Assembly: GCA_027603945.1 (NCBI GenBank)
Contig: JADIIU010000054.1
Location: 1 to 64,000 of the forward strand
Reading direction: 5' to 3'
Length of the DNA stretch: 64,000 bases
Source: Terramyces sp. JEL0728
Taxonomy: Eukaryota > Chytridiomycota > Chytridiomycetes > Rhizophydiales > Terramycetaceae
Position numbers and translations under genes: made by a program. Positions 9,265-56,600 of the stretch are shown piece after piece. The stretch's first letter is position 1; each line of letters begins with the position of its first letter. The notes under the pieces were generated by a model that had not been told where the DNA came from, searched no databases, and was given only the letters and a program-made list of their open reading frames with translations.

Positions 9265-10839
9265 TTACTTTTTGGCTTCAATTTCACGATTGGTATATAA
9301 AACAACCAACTGCGGTCAAGTCAAAGTTACCTTATTATCGGAATAACATACAGCTAACTTGTCCCCCTTGGGACTATACGCCAGTTCGAAAACACCTCCT
9401 TGACCAGTGTAAGAATTAATTAGACTTCCATCCTGGGGTTAACAAGAACTACCTTCAAGTTCCATATATAAACACTTTTATCTACAGATCCACTTGCCAA
9501 GTACGTGGAATCTGGCGTGAAAGACACAGAATATACAGCTTCTTTGTGCTGAGATAGAGTATATAGACAATTACCAGAATTTATATCCCACAGCCTAATC
9601 GCACCATCGAAAGAAGCACTAGGTTAGCATACAAATACGTTGCAAGCCATAGTTTGTCTTCATTAGGTTTTGCTGGACACCACCTTACAGTGTAGATCTC
9701 TTTGTCGTGGGCAGTAAGATCCCAAATGGGTTCGTCTTGGTCCAAAGACCACACTTTTGCCGTTCTATCATCTGCGCACGATGCAAGGTATTTACCTCTG
9801 GGGTCCCATCTAATACAATTAACTTCGTCTGTATGGCCAGAAAATCTCTTTAGAGGCTCCAGTGACCCCAGCTGGCACACGAAAATCTTTTTATCAGCAG
9901 AGCTAGTGGCAAATGTAATATCATCACGCCAATCGACGTCTAATGTAGGTCCTGTATGAAACGAAAACTGCTGTCTAGAGTCGCCAGTCCTAATATCCCA
10001 AACGATGGCGCTAGTATCCAATCCACCGCTCAGCAATAGCTCTCCCTTTTTGTTCCATTTTAGTGAAAATATTGGGCCAACGTGTCTCTCCATCACAAAC
10101 TTTAGCTCTCCAGTTTTGTGCCAAATTCTGGCAAATCCATCATAAGATCCTGTTGCAAGGAGGTTTCCATCGGGCTAAAATTAAATATCTCGTACACTCC
10201 ATTCTAAAGTCGTGATATCTTTACTCTCTGCATTAGAATTACTGTGTGGCAAAATAATACTTGTAACTTTTACACTTGGATCTTCAGGTATATTCCAAAT
10301 TCTAGCAGAGCCATCTGCACTACCTGTAGCCAACAAAGGGAAAACAGAGTTCCACGAGCACACAAATACCTGGAATTAGAGAGATAATACCTATAATCAA
10401 CCATTACATACGTCTGCTTCATGCTCTTTAAGCGCTATTACATTATTGCTCGAAATTTCAATATTTCTATCTCGTTTCTCTTCACTCTTCTCCTTCTCTT
10501 CCTTGCGCTTCTTTTTCTTTTTCTTTTCTTGTATTTGACAAACGTGAGGGCCTAGTAGGGTGTATGGAGCGACACATTTCTTTTCACTTCCATCCTGCAG
10601 TTAGCAAAAATTACCTCATTTAAATGGGTTTCCACTTGAGAGAAGAGCAAACCTTTCTGCAGCAGCGTTATTAGAGCTCCAGGGGCAACTGAACCTTGTT
10701 TGATCTCTGCCATGTGTATCGCAGTTTCATACTGAAAGGCAAACGAAGTGTGATTGAATCCTGATATTAACATGATTGAACCTGATTCTAAAAGATACCT
10801 GTACACCAAATAGTTTACTTCGTCTGAAGTGATGCTCAT
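9265..10839 (-). CDS. TBL1: TBL1/Sif2-like LisH-WD40 corepressor subunit
   Basis: There are eight exons: 10839-10782, 10760-10615, 10594-10412, 10369-10196, 10174-9639, 9618-9453, 9432-9331 and 9309-9265, giving 469 aa. An N-terminal LisH ([20 protein letters not shown]) is followed by a linker with a long Lys/Glu-rich stretch and about eight WD40 repeats. The first intron is 21 nt, in frame and stop-free, so only family alignment reveals it. The third is 42 nt and looks like two 21-nt introns joined (10370-10411). Family knowledge: TBL1/TBLR1 and yeast Sif2 belong to NCoR/SMRT or Set3 histone-deacetylase complexes. The divergent neighbour is an Ssn6-type corepressor. Confidence 0.92.
10370..10411 (-). 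other. Double-length intron: two 21-nt intron-like halves
   Basis: The sequence removed between exons 3 and 4 of the TBL1-like gene reads as two 21-nt GT..AG units directly abutting, 10411-10391 and 10390-10370 on the minus strand. Each has GTAT at the 5' end and TAG or CAG at the 3' end. The second unit contains an in-frame stop if retained, so both must leave the mRNA to keep the WD40 repeat intact. Confidence 0.7.
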
Positions 10840-10904
10840 TTTGAAAAAACAAAATTCCTTGAAAATTTCTCCAAAAAAACGACCGTTCAATGGCCACACA
10901 GATT

Positions 10905-11060
10905 GTAAAGGAATTACAGGTAATGAATGAGAACACTTGGTTCCAAATAGGTATCACGATGAATAACGCATAGGTAAGCAAACCATAATCATTAGGTAGC
11001 TGGATGATTAACCTTTAGGTATAGGAAATCTAACATAAGGTAAGAGATCCTAACATGTAG
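10905..11060 (+). repeat. Tandem array of seven abutting micro-intron-like units
   Basis: Seven GT..AG segments lie end to end: 10905-10919 (15 nt), 10920-10950 (31), 10951-10973 (23), 10974-10995 (22), 10996-11018 (23), 11019-11039 (21) and 11040-11060 (21). Every junction reads AG|GT, every unit begins GTA, and the last five contain TAAC or TAAT a few bases before the acceptor, as the coding introns do. The array ends 17 bp before the ATG of the Ssn6-like gene and lies in its sense orientation, so it is probably in the 5' leader. It contains several upstream ATGs that splicing would remove. Confidence 0.7.
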
Positions 11061-11077
11061 GCCAAGTAGCTGAAAAC

Positions 11078-12623
11078 ATGTCGGACCCAGATAAAGCTCT
11101 GGCGGCTTACGAAAATTGCCTCCGGCACAACCCCTACTCTGAAAAAACGCTTACCATCATTGCGTCCCTGTGCCGATCTCAAGAGAAATACGCAAAAGTA
11201 AGCAGGTTTAACCCTAGGCTGCTGAATATTTTCAAAGAATATTGAAATTACATGACAATAATGGAGAAGTCTGGGGAGCTTTAGGACACTGTTATCTGAT
11301 GCTGGATGATTTACACAAGGCATATTCTGCATACCAGCAAGCGCTTTATCATTTGCCGAATCCTAAAGTATATCTTTTTTCATTTAGGAACCAAAGTTAT
11401 GGTATGGAATAGGGATATTGTATGATCGTTACGGTTCTTTTGAACATGCAGAAGACGCATTCTCAGCAGTTATTGAGATGGATCCAAATTTTGAGAAAGC
11501 TAACGAAATTTATTTCAGACTTGGAATTATTTACAAGCAAGAAGGAAAATATGAAAACAGTCTGGAGTGTTTCAAGTACATTTTGAACTGCCCGCCTAGC
11601 CCGCTGACTGAACTAGATATCTGGTTCCAAATCGGACATTTGTATGAACAACAAAAGGAATACGGAAAAGCCAGGGAGGCATATGAAAGAGTGCTGACCG
11701 AAAGTCCAAAACACGCAAAGGTTTTACAGCAACTTGGATGGTTGTACCATATATCCAACTCTGGTTTCACAAATCAAGACGCAGCAATCAGCCATCTAAG
11801 CCGCTCAATCGAATCTGATCAAACTGACGCGCAGAGCTTTTATTTCTTGGGCAGATGTTATATGGCTCAACAAAAATACAATGACGCCTACAACGCATAT
11901 CAACAAGCTGTATATCGCGATGGACGTAATCCTACATTCTGGTGTTCGATCGGTGTACTCTACTATCAGATCAACCAATACTCTGATGCATTGGATGCAT
12001 ACAGTAGGGCAATTAGAATTAATCCATATATTTCAGAAGTTTGGTACTTTTGTTTAATATCAGGTTTGATTTAGGGACCCTGTACGAATCGTGTGAAAAC
12101 CAGCAATCCGATGCTTTGGATGCATATACAAAAGCGCTTGAGATAGAACCCAACAATACGTTAATCAAACAGCGTATCCAGTATCTCAAGAACCCTACTG
12201 GCGAAAGCCCACCTCAACAATTGCAACCGCAGCAACCTGCTCCACAAGATACGGCTCCTCCCAAATATCCAAATGCTGGTGGCAGTGCCCCAGTAAATTT
12301 CAGAGTAAACACTACTAATATAGTCTCCACATCTTCCTGAAAGACCATTGAACAATCAACAGCAACCCCGTAAAACTGGCCAAAAACCAGTATTAAATGG
12401 CGGCGGTCCAACTTCTTTCTCTCAATTAGCAAACCCAAACCCGCCAAACCAACCACGACCGCCCCAACCACAGCAACAGCCGCCATCTCGCCAAATGATG
12501 CTGGGTCCTCAACTTAACCGAGCTGGATTACCAGATGAAAAGGAAGAGCAACCACAAAGTGGCAAAAGACGTTTGACACCCATTGATGGCCCTGACATGA
12601 AAAGATACAAACAGCCTCAATAA
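11078..12623 (+). CDS. SSN6: Cyc8/Ssn6-type TPR general corepressor
   Basis: The exons are 11078-11197, 11218-11367, 11388-12043, 12064-12304 and 12324-12623, with introns of 20, 20, 20 and 19 nt, giving 488 aa. About ten tandem TPR repeats fill residues 1-340. They include the characteristic ESxxTDAQSFYFLGRCYMAQ and YRDGRNPTFWCSIGVLYYQI segments of Ssn6/UTX-type TPRs. A Pro/Gln-rich tail and a basic C-terminus follow. Family knowledge: Ssn6 pairs with Tup1 to repress transcription through DNA-bound factors. No Tup1 gene is in the window, but a WD40 corepressor gene is its divergent neighbour. AATAAA overlaps the TAA stop. Confidence 0.93.
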
Positions 12624-17243: not shown

Positions 17244-20204
17244 ATGGTAATCTTGAACTAACACATAGAAAGACATTCGTGACTTTTTCAAGGTAAATGG
17301 CACTCTAAAACGTAGCCTAAAAGTAATTGATTCCTAATTGCAGCAAAGCCTAAAAAGGAACAGAGATCTGTAGTAATCGTTGACTCTGACGATGAAGCAC
17401 CAGTAGAGAAACCAAAATCTACACCGACCAAGAGAAAGTTACCGGACGCATTTGATTCGCAACCGTATTCTCTACTGATATTAGAAAGAAATTGGTTGAT
17501 CCGTCAAGTTTCTTCAACAAGCCAGTTGCACAATCTGACAAAACATTCGCCAAGGGTGTTAATAGGGATGATATGGATGTTGATTTCAATGAAGCGGCAA
17601 TAAAATTACTGGATGAAGTTGAGAAGAACGAGAAGAGTAAGGAGAATTTCATTCCAGAAGAGAGTCCTGCCTCAAAGAAGATCAAAACTGGAAAGGAAGT
17701 TAAAAAGGAGGAACCTGTGAAGCAAAAGGAGGAACCTGTAAAGCAAAAGGAACCTGTGAAGCAAAAGGAGGAACTTGTAAAGCAAAAGGAGGAACCTGTG
17801 AAGCAAAAGGAGGAACCTGTGAAGCAAAAGGAATCACCAAAGAAAAAAGCAGCAGGAAAAAGGGAAAAGACTCTAGAGGATAATGTTCAAAAAGTACATG
17901 ATATTTCAAAGACGGCAGCAAAGGAGACTGAAAAAGAAGAACCCAAAAAATTCAAGTATTTCTAGTTAATCCAGTTACCATGAATATGTAGCCAAGAGAG
18001 CTAGCCATACTCAAGCAATAGTTCATAGGCCAGCTCCAGTTGGAGCTCCAAACTGTTTGGCTGGAATGACATTTGTATTTACTGGAGATTTAGCTTCGCT
18101 TTCAAGAGAAGATTCCACAGATATTATAAAGAGATATGGAGGGTAACTAATTCTTAACCTAGCCGCGTTACCACGGCTCCGAGCAAGAAAACTTCCTATG
18201 TTGTCGTTGGCCAAGATCCTGGACCAAAAAAGATGGAAAAGATTGCTGATCTGAAAGTAAAGACGCTGAATGAAGACGAATTTTACGATTTAATCAATTC
18301 ATTCGGCTCTGGGTCAGGAGCAGCTCCTGCTTCAGTAACATCTTCAACGAAAACAGCCCCAACAGAAAAGAAACCTATGAAAGATAAAGGCAAAGCACCA
18401 ATCAGTTCAACGGTTCCCTTTGCTAAGCCAAAGCCATCAGACCAATTGTGGACTGATAAATACAAACCTCAAAACTATGGGGAGGTTATTGCGAACAAGA
18501 CGCTGATTGAAAAATTAGCGCTATGGGTACGGGACTGGTAAATTTGAATAAACAACAGGGACAAGAACCGGAAGGCTGGATTCCCAAAAGGATCAAAGGA
18601 TTCTGTAACGCAATTTAGAGCTGCACTGCTATCTGGCCCGCCTGGTATTGGGAAAACCACAGCTGCACATTTAGTTGCAAAGTTTGAAGATGTTGACGTT
18701 TTGGAATTTAATGCGAGTGATTCGAGAAGCAAAAAGACACTGGACGATCTGGTTCGAGAAGCAACACTTTCAGGAACGGTAAAAGACTTTTTCGCTGGAA
18801 AACCTCAATCTAAAGGGAAAAAGATCATTATTATGGAGTAATTATCTGTTGATGTTAGTGAGGTTGATGGCATGTCCAGCGGAGATAGAGGTGGCATCGC
18901 TGAGATAATCCAAATCTTAAAGAAAAGTCATGTTCCTATCATCTGCATTTGTAACGAGCGGTCGTCCCCCAAAATTAGGTCTTTGGCCAATCACTGCCTT
19001 GATCTGCGATTCAGAAGGTTCGTATTCTTTGACTGTAGAGCAACTGCACAGCAGGTTGAAGCAAGGTTGAAGACTATTGCGCAAAAGGAGGGCTTGAGTC
19101 TCGAGCCAAATGCAATCGCTGAACTGGTTGCCTCGACATCTGGTGATATCCGTCAAATTTTGAACCTTTTGTCGACCTACAGACTATCACACAACAATAT
19201 GTCTTTTGATGATTCCAAAAATATGTATTTCAAAGCTAAGCTAGTTCAAATTCTGTTTCAAAGAATGTTTCTTTGTCGCCATTCGATATCACCTCACGGC
19301 TATTCACTCAGCATTCCTTTAGATCTACTTCTTTCAATGATAAGATTGATTTCTATTTCCAAGATTTTTCTTTGATTCCATTGATGGTTCAAGTATTTAT
19401 GCTATAATTCTAGGAAAATTATATTCATTGTAATTCACAACTAGCTCGGGAATCTGGAGCATCGGGTAAAAAATTGGATCATCAAGTGATTAGTTTAATG
19501 GCACAGGCTGCAGATTCAATCTCACTTGGTGATATTTTGGATAGCAGCCAAAGAAAAGAAAACTCATGGTCTCTATTGCCAATACACGGTGTAATATCCA
19601 CAGTGCGTCCCTGTTTCTTTGCTCACGGTCAACTTAAGGGGATGATTCAGTTTCCGTCTTGGCTGGGTCAGAACTCAAAGCAAGGCAAGGGAGGCAGATT
19701 GCTGCGTGAATTGCAATTACACACTAGACTCCATACATCTGCTGATAAACACCAATTGCGTCTTACTTATCTTCCACTTTTAGCAAAGAAATTGACCAAA
19801 CCAATGATTGACAGTGAAGAGGGGGTTGACGATGTCATCAGCCTGATGGACAGTTACTATTTGAACCGAGACGATTTTGATTCAATCATGGAACTGGGCT
19901 ATCAGGGATATCCAGGCGGCATTCCTTCAAAAACGAAATCTGCTTTCACGCGAACGTAATTCTCTATTAACCTAGATACAACAAATCCAGCCATCCAACA
20001 CCATTCTCATCTGAAGTAAAAGCTTCACGTCCTTCTGCATCCATGGATGTGCCTGATTTAGAAGACGTTGTATTGGAAGATGAAGCAGCCGAAGAAGAGG
20101 AAGAAGAGGAAGAAAAGCCGGTGCAAGCAGCTAAACCGAAAGGAAAACCAACGAAAGCGGCCAAACCATCGTCTTCTAAAGCAAAGCCAAAGAAAGGCAA
20201 ATAA
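17244..20204 (+). CDS. RFC1: Replication factor C large subunit
   Basis: There are thirteen exons, all ending in frame: 17244-17246, 17269-17292, 17316-17322, 17344-17464, 17485-17955, 17975-18142, 18163-18537, 18559-18837, 18859-19017, 19039-19224, 19245-19392, 19414-19955 and 19976-20204, giving 903 aa. The first coding exon is only the ATG and the third only 7 nt. The order is an N-terminal PIP-like MKDIRDFFK, a disordered charged region with KQKEEPV repeats, a BRCT domain (about 230-310), then the AAA+ clamp-loader core with Walker A SGPPGIGKTT and Walker B IIIMDE (split by an intron). The RFC1 C-terminal domain follows, with an acidic and Lys-rich tail. It loads PCNA. Confidence 0.95.
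17316..17322 (+). other. 7-nt microexon of RFC1
   Basis: CCTAAAA lies between a 23-nt intron (17293-17315) and a 21-nt intron (17323-17343). Only inclusion of these 7 nt joins the MKDIRDFFK exon to the downstream frame, giving FFKPKTKPKKEQ. Neither read-through of either intron nor one 51-nt intron keeps the frame. Confidence 0.7.
17707..17831 (+). repeat. Tandem 21-bp repeats coding KQKEEPV
   Basis: Six near-identical copies of a 21-bp unit (one copy shortened by a codon) encode a Lys/Glu/Pro heptad repeat in the disordered N-terminal region of RFC1. The copies are almost identical at DNA level, which suggests recent expansion. Confidence 0.85.
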
Positions 20205-50685: not shown

Positions 50686-53600
50686 TCAATATATTTCTTG
50701 GGATTCGCTGAGAAACATTTCAATTTGTGCCAGATCTTCTACGTCGTCCGCAATACCATGATATTTTTTGTATAATTTCCAAAGTTTGATTGCATCGCTA
50801 GTTCTATCGTTAGATTGCATTTACCTGGACGCATTCAAAGTAGCCTGCAATAGCTTGGTGATTCTGTTATTCTTGATCAAGTGCTTCACAAATGATTCCA
50901 TACATTGCGATCTTCCTATTGTCAGATATTTGCCATGATCATTTAGCAAATCAAAGATGGTTGATGACAATGAATCTTGAATTTCCGTGAAAACAGCGTA
51001 TTTTTGGGAATATTCTTTAAGAAGTACAAGAACTTTTACTGACTTCTCTTCATTCTCCCATTTAATATATGAATCTAGCGATTCATTTTTGATTGAGCCT
51101 GGTAGTCTACTGAGCAGTAAATAAGAGCAAATCATTTCGTTTGCAGTATTTTGATATCTTGAACAAATATCCAAAATATCAACAAAGAAACTACTCGTCA
51201 AATGCTCAATCTCTATCAAATGATCTGCATACTGAATAAATTGGTGCAAATCAGAATCTGCGTTATCTTGTAGTTACCGTCTGATTTAAACCGGTTGGTC
51301 AGCATATTTTTCAGCACTGTACTCCAAACTGAATGTAGGTTTTTCAGAGTTGAAAGCTGCGGAATGTAAAGCATACTGCGCAATAGGGAGTACTGTTTAG
51401 ATAATGGAAGCTGGGAGGTCGGAAAGGTTTCAAGCACATTAAACCATAACTCCAAGTCAAATATTGAATAATCTAGACAAATTTTGCAAATAAGGTTCAA
51501 TGTCTGATTGTAAACAATAATTTTACCGTTTCGTTAGTTCGATACGAAAGCCAAAGGGATCTTACAAGAGCCAACTTGTTGCTGTTTTCAAAATCAGAGA
51601 GTAGCTGTGGAAACCCAATTTCTTCAAAATCTTTCAAGTACATCAAAGTCTTTACCTTTTTTCTTGTTAAGGAAGGCTTACCGAATAGCTTCAGGATCAA
51701 TATGTTTCGAGCTAAATCCATCCAATGTTGTAAACCTCAATATAATCGATAAACTTTGGATCCTTGAAGAGACTGATATTTTGTTGTTTGGCTACTTAAA
51801 TAGAAATTACCAATTGTGAAAACGCATACAATTTGCTCACTCCCCATTCAACTTTACCATTAAACAAGAATATGACACGCTCTTGCAATTCCAAGTCAGA
51901 TTGAAGTGGATTTAAATCAGTTGTTATCCACTTTTGAAGGAGCATCAACTTTAATTTTTCCAAGTCAATGTTGTTTCTTTTGGCCACTTCTTCTGCCAAC
52001 GTATGAAAAGTTTCCACTATCATTAAACTCTATTACCTTCCAGCTTTGGTCTGTTATTCTCGTGTGTTAACAACTGCGCAATCAATGAGTTTGGTTTTGT
52101 TACAAGTTTGTCATAGATCTGCAGCCCATATATCTGTAAAGAATTTTCTGTTTCGGCTATCGCAAGCATATTCTTGATTTTCGACACCCCAGTCTGTGCC
52201 ATCTCTAACGTTGCCGTTTCCTTGGATTAGTTTGCACATACTTTATCTCCTTGAAGTGAATGTACCCATTTATCGGCAAATTGGAGACCTAATCTGTAGG
52301 CAGCAATCCGATCTTCTCCTCTCGGAAAATTGCCTGCTATATAGACAGTGGTTCGTACAAGTAATTCATAATCAGCAATTTTAGTAACCAGAGCTTTAAA
52401 ATCGTTGAATGTGATGTCTCTGCCAATCAGTCGCAGTTCATATTCTTCAAGATTTTGATACTGCTCAAGTTCCAGTTGCTTTAATTAGCTAATTTGTACC
52501 AATTTTTGGATTTTTTGATTGATCAAGGCTTCGTAGAACTTGTCAGTCGAAAGTTCAAGGACCTGAGTTAATGGGATCAATCTGGAAATTGTAGATTCAG
52601 TGATTTCAACCGACAGAACCTTGATTGGATCAATCATTATTTGATGGAAAGGAAGACGTTCTGTGCGCATATTATGGAACTTGTTAGCAATCGAAATACC
52701 ACTTCGTTTGAGATTTTCCACACTTTTTCAATATTACTCAAGCCTATATCAATTTCATTTGGTGGAAAATTCTCCTCTTCGGAAGGTTCAGATGCCCTAT
52801 TATAGCGCACTAGTATATCAAGAATAGCTTTCTTCTTCTTTGTGACTGTGCAAGAGGGATCCAAATACAAAATCTGCTGACATAGGAAAATGAGACCTGG
52901 TATCAGAGCATATTACCTGGATAGTCATAGGGGGATACCTTTGGTAAATAGTCGTTCAGAAGCAAATCCAAAAGCAAAGATTTGTTGGTGTACTTTTCAA
53001 TCGCAAAGACTATTCGAGAATGGCGGTCTTCATCGTTGGAGTGAATAAAGAAGTTTAGCTGAATGTAATTTTTGTATATGAAATCAAATTCAATGTTGAA
53101 CTGATCTGCAAAATCTTCCCCAAGTGTGAGATCGCCAGATTTGAATAATAAATATGGGACTAGAGATCTTCGGTATTCGTCACCCTGCGGAGTTTGTGCT
53201 TTAAAGACCATTTCCTCACATGGAATTTCTCGTCAGAAACAAATTACCCAGCATTTTAAATTCCTGTAGCCATTTTGAGTGGATTACAAGCTGTAAACAG
53301 TTGACTTGGAATATCCGTTGATTCCAATGCTTTCCTGCCAAAGATCCCAGGTTACCAATCCTTTGTAATTTTAGATGATCTTTGCCCGCATTGGTAATAC
53401 CATTCTAAAGATTAATTAGAAAGTACCTTGAACAGCTCATTTGATTTTCCAATAGGCAAAAACAGCATGCACCCGAGAGTGTAATCGTAGTCCATATTGC
53501 TAGTTGCCAACAAATTTTGCAAAGAGTTGACAATTGAGTCGGTGATTAAATGGTCTAGTTCTTTGAACGGTCCTTTGGCATGGAACTGCTGCTTTAGCAA

Positions 53601-56600
53601 CTGGCATATTCTTATACAACTTGCGTAGTTTCTAGTTGAAAAGCATTTTTGAGCAACATCTAATGCAGCAGAATAGACATCATTTTCTGCAGACTTTCCC
53701 TTCCCTTTTGAATCTGCTGTGTCTTCTTGAAGATCCCGCATCTTTATAAAAGTCAACAAATTGGGCAGTATTGCAGAGGACGATGCAACTAAACCGATAT
53801 CTTGATACCTGTCTTCAAATAGCCCGTCGATTTCAGATTTGCTTTTGTTTTTTACCACGGATTGCTTGTAAGCTCCAAGATCTGTTTGCATAATCACTTC
53901 ATAAGCAATTTCTAGTCTTTTGAAAAATGCCATGTGCACTTTGTTATCTCAATATTACTCTCTAGCTGGCTGGGTTTACAGTGCTTCACTGTTAACTTTG
54001 ACATCTCCAAAACACTGTGTGAAATTTCGACACACTTGCTAGGGTATTTGTCAGCATTTGAAATTAGATCCCCAATCAGATGGGAAATAATTTCGGAACA
54101 ATACTCCTGGTCTAATTTGACTAGTTCCTATCGTTACTGATCAACTACTTTGCATATGGATAGTACATGACTTGCTTCCCCATTTAGAGCCAAATAACGG
54201 CCAATTCTTGATAGTATCGTACGTTGTTCAAACCCTAGTATTTCTCCCATTTTGATACAGTGGCCCTCTTCAGCCTTTTGCTCTTCTATTATTTCATCCA
54301 GTAGAACAACAGTGAATTCTTTATCTTCCAATTGCTTTGGGGTAATATTTCGATTCAGTTGAATACATAGCTGAATTGTCTTACTATAAACTGGCGAATT
54401 AAATACCAAGGCTCCAGCTCGCAAGAAACCAATGAAAATTTCCAAATCAACATGAATCATGCCGTCTAATTTGAACAAAATCCAGGTATCTATATGCTTG
54501 AGCACATACTGTAGCTCTTCTGGCTCAATATACTTTTGCTGCCCACTTTCTGAGCAATTTTTCAATAATCGTTCCAATTGGTCCAGCATTGCGTTGTTGA
54601 CTAGATACTGCAAACGCTGAACAAACACATCTATTCTGCTTACACCGTATACATCAGACACCATTATCGCGTCGTCGATGGCACGATCAGTGTCATTTGA
54701 CAGTATAAGGGAAATGATCTTTAGAGCAGTAACTTTATCCGAGACATTGAACTTGTCCACACCATACGACTTGACCATTCTTTTCAATTCCATCATCCTG
54801 TATTGTTCAGACAATTCTGTTGATAGTTTATTTTCATTTTTGAGCGCTTCAGCTATCAACTTGTCAAGAGCATGGGACCAAGGTATTGGCGAGCGGCGCA
54901 TCAAGTCAATTAGAATCTCTGATCTGTAAGTTTGGCATTCGATTAAAGATAAAATTGGGAAAACTCGAAGCTCCATATCGTCAGATTCTTGGATCAAATC
55001 TTTGGCGTACTCCACCAGAAACAAATTCAGTGATACTCGATTTTTGGTTAGGTATGGTTTGATATGTTGTTGAATCTGGGGGACGATTTCGTCGGGTGAT
55101 TCAGCCCTATCTAACATCGACATTGCAGTTATTTGCACAGTGCTGTTTTCAAAGCTTTCAAAGGTTGTATAAAAAGAGTGCATACCCTAAAATTAGCAAC
55201 AGTTACTGCCAACTCAATGATGTCTTGCAATTGAGTAATACGTTTAGTGATTTCAGAAAAAATATCACTGCTTTTGAATTTTTGTGAAGATGAAGCCTTG
55301 AAGATGCTCGAAATGTAATTTTCAGGAGTAGTGGAGCTCTCTTTATCTTTGAGATTATCTGAGGCCCATTCTAGCAGAAATAGAGAGTCTTTGAATGATC
55401 CTTGTTTTGCAATAGTTTCAGCGCGTTCCAGAATCCACTTGTATAAGACTTTCTTAGATTTAGCTTCCTTTTCAATCTCACAAAGTATCAAAGTCAAAAT
55501 TCGAGATGGTATTTCTAGGTGGATGTATGAAATTAGCAATTCCAAGTTCTTTTCAAAGTCCAATTCTGTTTTAGCAGACACATACCTGTCCTGTGCCGTC
55601 TGCAAACGATTAACGCCAAATCGTATCTTTCCAAAGAGAGATATAGCTGTAAATTCAAGATCATTTTTGATTTTAGGAATATTTGAGCGCTCGAGCAAAA
55701 CCCATCCTGATTTCGGTCTTTGCTTCTCCATTGGTATTGGATTTCAAGAAAAGTGTTTACTCTTCCAATCAATTGTGTAAATTCATTTACAATAGCTGGC
55801 TGGTTCAACCCTGCGAATGTATTTTTGGCAAATAGAAAGATCGATTGCAGTTGTTGAGTGTCTTCTGACTTGTAGCTTAAACAAAACGAATAAACAAACT
55901 CATAATCCTACGGTCAACACATCGTACAGTGATTTCTCCCAGAATATCAATAATTTCTTCAAATGGGCTGCACAATAATCTGGCTTTATAAAATTCATCA
56001 TTCGAAATATTGTTTTCTGCCGCATAAGCTTCAGCTCTCTCTAGATTTGTCTGTAAAAGCTGTAAGAGGATTTCTTTTGGGTCAGTCACTACTTTTTCGT
56101 ATAATTTCAGATTTCCTTCCTTGGATAGAACAAATACATTCTCTGAGCAAGCCTTTAAATTAATCTCTCTACAATATTGAACAAATAAGAATCCCCTTGT
56201 GTCTAATATTCTGGCAGCATCTGCGAATCCGCAAATAATCCTGAATGCATCCAGTTTGCGTATATTGGCAACCGTTAATTCCAGCTTTTTGGCAATCAGG
56301 AAGCTTATCAATTATAAAGTACCTTTCTGCATCAATGGCGTAAATCTGGTTCTCCAAGTGAACTATTATCATTCCGTTCAGTGAAATGATGTTCAGAATG
56401 TGTTGTTTGAAATTGACCGACTCTTCCAAGGTGCGGTTGTACAATCGCAATGCGTCTTGTTACAAAAAACTTACCTCCTACCGTTAATATAGCACTCTAA
56501 AATAAGAATCATGTACCACCATTGGCGATTACAACTTTTCCAGGAGAATGTTTTTGTATTACTGTAAAGTCGATATCCCACTTTATGATTTCATGCTTGA

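Follow-up and report, generated by a model that had tools for sequence, protein, structure and literature searches.

Abutting intron units in the Ssn6 coding sequence of Terramyces sp. JEL0728 and similar arrays across its genome

The Ssn6 gene and its array

The window analysed here is the whole stretch of 64,000 nucleotides at positions 1 to 64,000 of contig JADIIU010000054.1 (Terramyces sp. JEL0728, assembly GCA_027603945.1). Terramyces is a genus of the Rhizophydiales, an order of chytrids. The window carries a gene that encodes, once spliced, a TPR protein of the Ssn6/CYC8 type with 98% identity to HDV04_003566 of Boothiomyces sp. JEL0838. The divergent start codons of Ssn6 and of a TBL1-like gene are just 50 bp apart (10840-10889), and both genes are relatives of corepressor parts. 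Within the Ssn6 coding sequence, the 110 nt at 10951-11060 consist of five abutting intron units of 23, 22, 23, 21 and 21 nt, which interrupt codon 21 in phase 1. The features of the gene are as follows; here and below, a slash within a motif marks a joint.

10890 to 10950, + strand: Ssn6 coding exon 1, MATQIVKELQVMNENTWFQIG, last codon split G/GC (translation; homologue alignment; protein-to-genome alignment)
10951 to 10973, + strand: Ssn6 intron unit 1, 23 nt, GTATCACGATGAATAACGCATAG (unit scan, gene finder, protein-to-genome alignment)
10974 to 10995, + strand: Ssn6 intron unit 2, 22 nt, GTAAGCAAACCATAATCATTAG (unit scan, gene finder, protein-to-genome alignment)
10996 to 11018, + strand: Ssn6 intron unit 3, 23 nt, GTAGCTGGATGATTAACCTTTAG (unit scan, gene finder, protein-to-genome alignment)
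11019 to 11039, + strand: Ssn6 intron unit 4, 21 nt, GTATAGGAAATCTAACATAAG (unit scan, gene finder, protein-to-genome alignment)
11040 to 11060, + strand: Ssn6 intron unit 5, 21 nt, GTAAGAGATCCTAACATGTAG (unit scan, gene finder, protein-to-genome alignment)
11061 to 11197, + strand: Ssn6 exon 2, in which ATG 11078 is an internal Met (homologue alignment; protein-to-genome alignment)
11198 to 11217, + strand: solo intron, 20 nt (protein-to-genome alignment, 3/3 homologues)
11368 to 11387, + strand: solo intron, 20 nt (protein-to-genome alignment, 3/3 homologues)
12044 to 12063, + strand: solo intron, 20 nt (protein-to-genome alignment, 3/3 homologues)
12305 to 12323, + strand: solo intron, 19 nt (protein-to-genome alignment, sole full-length query P0001)

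The place of the array in the coding sequence, its exact outer boundaries and the signals of its units were computed directly. The Ssn6 frame runs from ATG 10890 through MATQIVKELQVMNENTWFQIG and resumes past 11060 with QVAENMSDPDKALAAYENCLRHNP. The deposited Boothiomyces protein has the same start Met, and the conserved first TPR repeat is built from residues on either side of the array. A protein-to-genome aligner, which charges an equal cost for any intron length, allows 10-500 nt and has no knowledge of units, placed a 110-nt gap at exactly 10951-11060 with all three homologues used (P0001, P0002 and P0003). In an alignment with 15 fungal homologues, the junction is gap-free; P0006, which has a different N-terminus, begins three residues upstream of it, and the insert of P0093 is located further downstream. 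These gapless homologues imply that the array would be removed from the Ssn6 mRNA. A gene finder trained on the Terramyces genome likewise took 10890 as the start and predicted the five units to be introns; the same program erred later in Ssn6, where it removed 18 coding nt.

Each unit has the size and the signals of one intron (GTA, TAAY, AG), and all five are of the U2-type form GT...AG with a branch motif near the 3' end. At the four AG/GT joints between them, an acceptor and a donor are juxtaposed, as in recursive splicing. When GTA...TAAY...AG units of 18-25 nt were scanned for, a single chain was found in the 64 kb, namely the five units at 10951-11060, while 20 dinucleotide shuffles of the window gave a mean of 0.05 two-unit chains and none longer. 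Bare GT...AG units (15-35 nt) form a seven-unit chain, and the shuffles never went above four. This loose rule also chains coding sequence, at 52877-52938 and at the first two members of the seven-unit chain.

An earlier note on this DNA had read 10905-11060 as seven intron units of 15, 31, 23, 22, 23, 21 and 21 nt in the leader of Ssn6. The seven GTA...AG stretches and the AG/GT at all their joints are as it described. The first two (10905-10919 and 10920-10950), however, fall within coding exon 1, as the start at 10890 and the gap common to the three homologues indicate, so that only five are intron units; the homologue and protein-to-genome alignments move the array from the leader into codon 21. 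The ATG that the note saw 17 nt past the array is at the right distance, but it encodes an internal Met of a frame that begins at 10890. All 31 possible combinations of retained units bring in a premature stop codon; when one unit is kept, 24-31 residues are translated.

Ordinary introns and arrays across the genome

The arrays are to be seen against the ordinary introns of this genome, which are very short. In a 264-kb sample (the window plus 40 kb from the start of each of contigs C1-C5), 628 of 724 ab initio introns measure 17-25 nt with a mode of 20, some of these calls being false. GTA opens 81% of the 592 solo introns predicted at 18-24 nt, and TRAY stands before the AG in 60% and YTRAY in 52% (51.9%); in most of those that bear the motif, the branch A is followed by 5-6 nt. 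A G at donor position +5 is rare (16% of predicted introns), the consensus being GTAATT/GTATTT. The U2 snRNA gene is present (140 bits), and U6 gave two matches, both below the cut-off. U1 was unmatched by its Rfam model, which also matched none of 14 control genomes and is therefore uninformative.

Protein guides gave a similar picture in a Rod/KNTC1-like gene. With P0145 (Boothiomyces sp. JEL0866), the best guide, 20 of its 22 introns are 19-22 nt long, and the others 61 and 77 nt. Three other guides put 18 of 21, 14 of 20 and 13 of 16 introns at 19-22 nt, the remainder being irregular gaps of 11-307 nt. The gene finder's introns of 26-75 nt were not trusted. Under protein guidance in the Rod gene, a 42-nt prediction shrank to 20 nt, a 37-nt one was without counterpart, and a 39-nt one was absorbed into the 61-nt gap. 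In the Ssn6/GPHR and Rod alignments, protein guides lend little support to solo introns of 40-200 nt. The 61-nt gap is possibly a decayed array that is turning into a longer intron:

56456 to 56516, - strand: Rod/KNTC1-like 61-nt gap, readable as 20+22+19 nt, with AG/GT at the second joint only (protein-guided, P0145)

Recurrence of the arrays was also computed directly. Three AGGTA sites at a spacing of 18-24 nt have 61 matches genome-wide, and 4 at 30-36 nt; reversed-letter controls of the pattern gave 26 and 14, respectively. Such pattern-search counts are lower bounds in repeats. The earlier note had held that an absence of similar arrays elsewhere would tell against abutting introns; they are in fact present, the 61 matches grouping into 36 loci. 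The branch motif is no part of this search pattern, and yet 57 of the 87 distinct array units carry YTRAY at 2-6 nt upstream of the AG, against 6.5 with the interiors shuffled (maximum 15 in 500 trials). At one locus on C104, the branch motif is absent and the sequence resembles a coding repeat. The pattern TAAC..AG/GTA..TAAC was matched 41 times, falling to 9 or 8 when three or five bases were inserted between AG and GTA; its reversed-letter control exceeds the real count each time (82 vs 41, 55 vs 9 and 54 vs 8), which is put down to the different words contained in the control.

In the 264-kb sample, abutting GTA..TRAY..AG units meet at 9 joints, compared with an average of 0.53 (maximum 3) over spacings of 1-60, and two of the nine (52916 and 9330) were judged false on inspection. 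With loose GT...TAAY units, 9 abutting joints were found against a mean of 1.2, and 10 against 4.6 in the reversed sequence, so the signal is clean only with GTA. At four thresholds, a weight-matrix spacing test counted 2, 1, 0 and 0 pairs that abut; it was uninformative because the branch motif floats, and the motif-based test was substituted. Tandem Repeats Finder detected no array with near-identical units in this sample. For the GTA donor type, arrays of at least three units are rare per gene, at about 36 loci in 15 Mb. Two-unit arrays are commoner, TBL1 and INTS4 having been validated in the 264 kb. As a frequency estimate, ab initio arrays were dropped: the two-unit calls include false ones. 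Three calls stand behind this decision. Only the middle 20 nt of 52877-52938 is an intron by protein guidance, 9310-9351 was read as coding sequence at the end of the TBL1-like gene, and L025:1122-1159 is probably false, the Pfam domain being six residues short.

Homology supports nine arrays, the largest of which has nine units. Removal of the whole array leaves a gapless junction in Ssn6 (five units), GPHR (nine), HOOK (seven and three), EMC2 (three) and the TBL1, INTS4 and KCNT1-like genes (two each), though gaps are present 5-20 residues from the junction in EMC2, INTS4, KCNT1 and the first HOOK array. For BAP31 (two units), the sole support is equal length, 136 residues to 136 Pfam positions. 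These loci support the earlier note's suggestion of abutting introns at a micro scale. The array of the TBL1-like gene lies in the window:

10370 to 10411, - strand: TBL1-like gene array, two abutting 21-nt introns (gene finder, motif spacing test; junction gapless against TBL1XR1 5naf)

The GPHR array spans 198 nt, and its homologues come from Kappamyces and Batrachochytrium salamandrivorans. Two extra GPHR gaps near the alignment ends (43 nt, and 24 nt with GC) are probably artefacts. The protein has no PDB match, and its Pfam matches lie past the array junction. The deposited JEL0728 GPHR protein, P0123 (locus L042), starts downstream of the nine-unit array and is without the parts that flank it. 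Standard annotation thus seems to fail at arrays, and the case of P0123 may serve as a warning to annotators. The gapless INTS4 junction lies in a stretch that matches weakly (25 bits), and a further array of this gene falls outside the homology match. Pfam, run on eight array proteins, yielded one informative equality (BAP31), and one of the eight was without a Pfam match; the ING domain of another (L041) matches with 109 residues over 100 positions. The PDB match of L030 starts past the junction and is therefore uninformative.

Locus L051 (G000:C128:20800-24300) has four intron-like arrays in 3.5 kb, three of them in the HOOK-like gene. Of the eight units in the third HOOK array, five are identical 20-mers; its support comes from frame and repeat. 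The fourth array of the locus has 23-nt units on the strand opposite to the gene. Some array units begin with GC and not GT (L041 1402-1529, L037 1431-1550, and L051 at 2680 bases after C128:20000). Two ab initio two-unit arrays at L049 1390-1432 and 1496-1540 (- strand) lie where a fibrillarin-like gene is rich in RGG and are possibly coding. In the window, a 21-nt repeat of about six copies at 17703-17832 stands in a predicted gene; it is probably coding and unrelated to the arrays.

Origin and removal of the units

Tandem duplication is directly visible in the arrays. Several adjacent units are identical, the copies being joined at AG/GT as in AGGT tandem duplication; 24 of 61 adjacent unit pairs exceed 95% of between-contig pairs in similarity, and 22 exceed 99%. 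Identical neighbours of this kind are the tandem duplication of one intron length, and growth by this route, as the earlier note had put forward, is supported at several loci. As regards introners (mobile introns), whose mark is similar sequence at many separate gene positions, array units on different contigs are little alike (mean similarity 0.554); C37 and C56 share a pair of array units (at C37:35266 and C56:21320 of G000, perhaps a duplicated segment). Similarity among the Ssn6 units is weak (0.53-0.70), and four of their ten pairs lie near the 98th percentile, uncorrected, which is suggestive of an old expansion.

The exon downstream of an array starts with G in 9 of 10 cases and with GT in 5 of 10, against 27.9% and 5.1% for solo introns; the ten comprise the nine homology-supported arrays plus the third HOOK array. 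The excess is weaker when six unvalidated arrays of at least three units are added (10 of 16 and 5 of 16). Slippage would exploit a GT that recurs on either side of the intron.

It is proposed that the 110 nt of Ssn6 are five complete mini-introns that arose by tandem duplication of one intron of ~20 nt and are probably excised singly, and we regard this as the likely reading. A single intron would have been tandemly duplicated, probably by slippage between the donor GT and the G or GT that opens the downstream exon. Each AG/GT joint could then serve as acceptor for one unit and as donor for the next, and a spliceosome accustomed to introns of ~20 nt would most likely excise the units singly by intron definition. 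As removal of any unit or run of units would keep the AG/GT joints, all orders and skips (five units can be partitioned into whole-unit blocks in 16 ways) should yield one mRNA. Since all routes would give the same mRNA, duplication would be nearly silent, and copies could accumulate in the manner of a minisatellite.

The most serious alternative holds that the 110 nt are one intron, spliced in one step with the first GT as donor and the last AG as acceptor, and that the inner AG/GT joints and branch motifs are relics of duplication. The protein-guided aligner does show one gap, and the 61-nt gap of the Rod gene, which lacks AG/GT at its first inner joint, indicates that removal beyond one unit length may be possible. 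Yet closer acceptors and branch motifs would need to be skipped, and solo introns of 40-200 nt are poorly supported by protein guides. The diverged units speak to the point as well. At 21 loci, the units have diverged to background; in 20 of these (C56 was excluded as a copy of C37), YTRAY is kept by 32 of 49 units against 5.6 in shuffles (maximum 13 in 1000), a rate not under the 51.9% of solo introns. One-step excision predicts that inner motifs decay, and unit-by-unit removal is therefore favoured; we consider the single intron unlikely, though deserving of some weight.

The other readings carry far less weight. The earlier note had seen in the array a regulated leader before the start codon, whose removal would switch Ssn6 translation on or off through upstream ATGs. 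There are indeed ATGs within the array and one 17 nt past it, but the conserved TPR repeat is made by the residues on its two sides, the Boothiomyces protein shares the start Met, and all 31 partial products are truncated; the switch is unsupported, partial retention cutting the protein short, and the leader is very improbable. The same low standing is given to inflation of the arrays by assembly error: identical adjacent units are a repeat type prone to miscounted copies, but the Ssn6 units are distinct from each other, and arrays of varied sequence are spread over many contigs. Least credible of all is a chance GT...AG chain or a translated, non-intronic repeat. Bare chains of three or four are frequent by chance, and a coding 21-nt repeat is known at 17703-17832; against this, no shuffled chain with a branch motif exceeds two units, stops occur within the region, and the homologues are continuous without it.

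Two observations speak against the proposed reading of singly excised mini-introns: the 61-nt gap of the Rod gene and a TG/GT joint in the L037 array, whose coding status is unvalidated, both hint that two units may sometimes leave together. On balance, we lean towards viewing these arrays as an unnamed kind of element, an 'intron minisatellite', a tandem repeat whose unit is a complete spliceosomal intron of ~20 nt. Slippage would gain or lose whole introns, splicing could remove them singly in any order, up to nine exonless units in succession would be tolerated within conserved coding sequence, and decayed joints may give longer introns. If this is true, whole introns multiply in place without an exon between them and are still spliced cleanly, which would offer a direct route for growth of both intron number and intron length. 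The arrays would also be a natural test of order independence at a spacing of ~20 nt, where an acceptor and the next donor share AGGT and could not be engaged simultaneously.

Comparison with known systems

Among the matches listed in a literature search, whose scope left subscription journals mostly outside, arrays of abutting mini-introns are undescribed in titles and abstract openings. Several known systems come near to them. The stwintrons of filamentous fungi are reported as nested, an internal intron splitting the donor or acceptor of an external one, with a fixed order of removal and a frame shift when distal sites are used (PMC9024468, PMC12403724). Like them, the Terramyces arrays are complex intervening sequences of fungi that would need consecutive splicing and that multiply by duplication. 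Unlike them, the units abut at complete AG/GT joints, the order need not matter, and distal use would be harmless; in the Ssn6 array, no intron splits a splicing element of another.

In the ratchet points of Drosophila, an acceptor likewise adjoins a donor, with an apparent exon of zero nucleotides. These are described as single sites in long introns that require a cryptic downstream exon (PMC8605326, PMC2773006), whereas in Terramyces as many as nine ~20-nt units follow directly on one another. Near-minimal introns are known from Stentor coeruleus, where they measure 15-16 nt with the branch A ~5 nt from the 3' end (PMC9505925), close to the 5-6 nt of most Terramyces introns with the motif; section 2.1 of that paper reports no abutting introns. 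Synthetic two-intron genes of yeast, as reported, retain an exon between the introns (PMC8496845).

Human UBC has tandem dual-specific AGGT sites around 228-nt coding ubiquitin monomers, of which a variable number is kept (PMC10809524). It, too, is a repeat-derived AGGT array in which each site is potentially acceptor or donor (here, by sequence), but the ~20-nt units of Terramyces are noncoding, and all must leave. In Schizosaccharomyces, 24-bp exonic AGGT repeats have been described, four copies of which are spanned by a single intron (Zhu and Niu, cited in PMC4974935). The duplication of AGGT and the presence of several short copies under one gap are common to both cases. There, however, an exonic segment becomes an intron; here, an existing intron would have been duplicated, each unit with its own donor, branch motif and acceptor.
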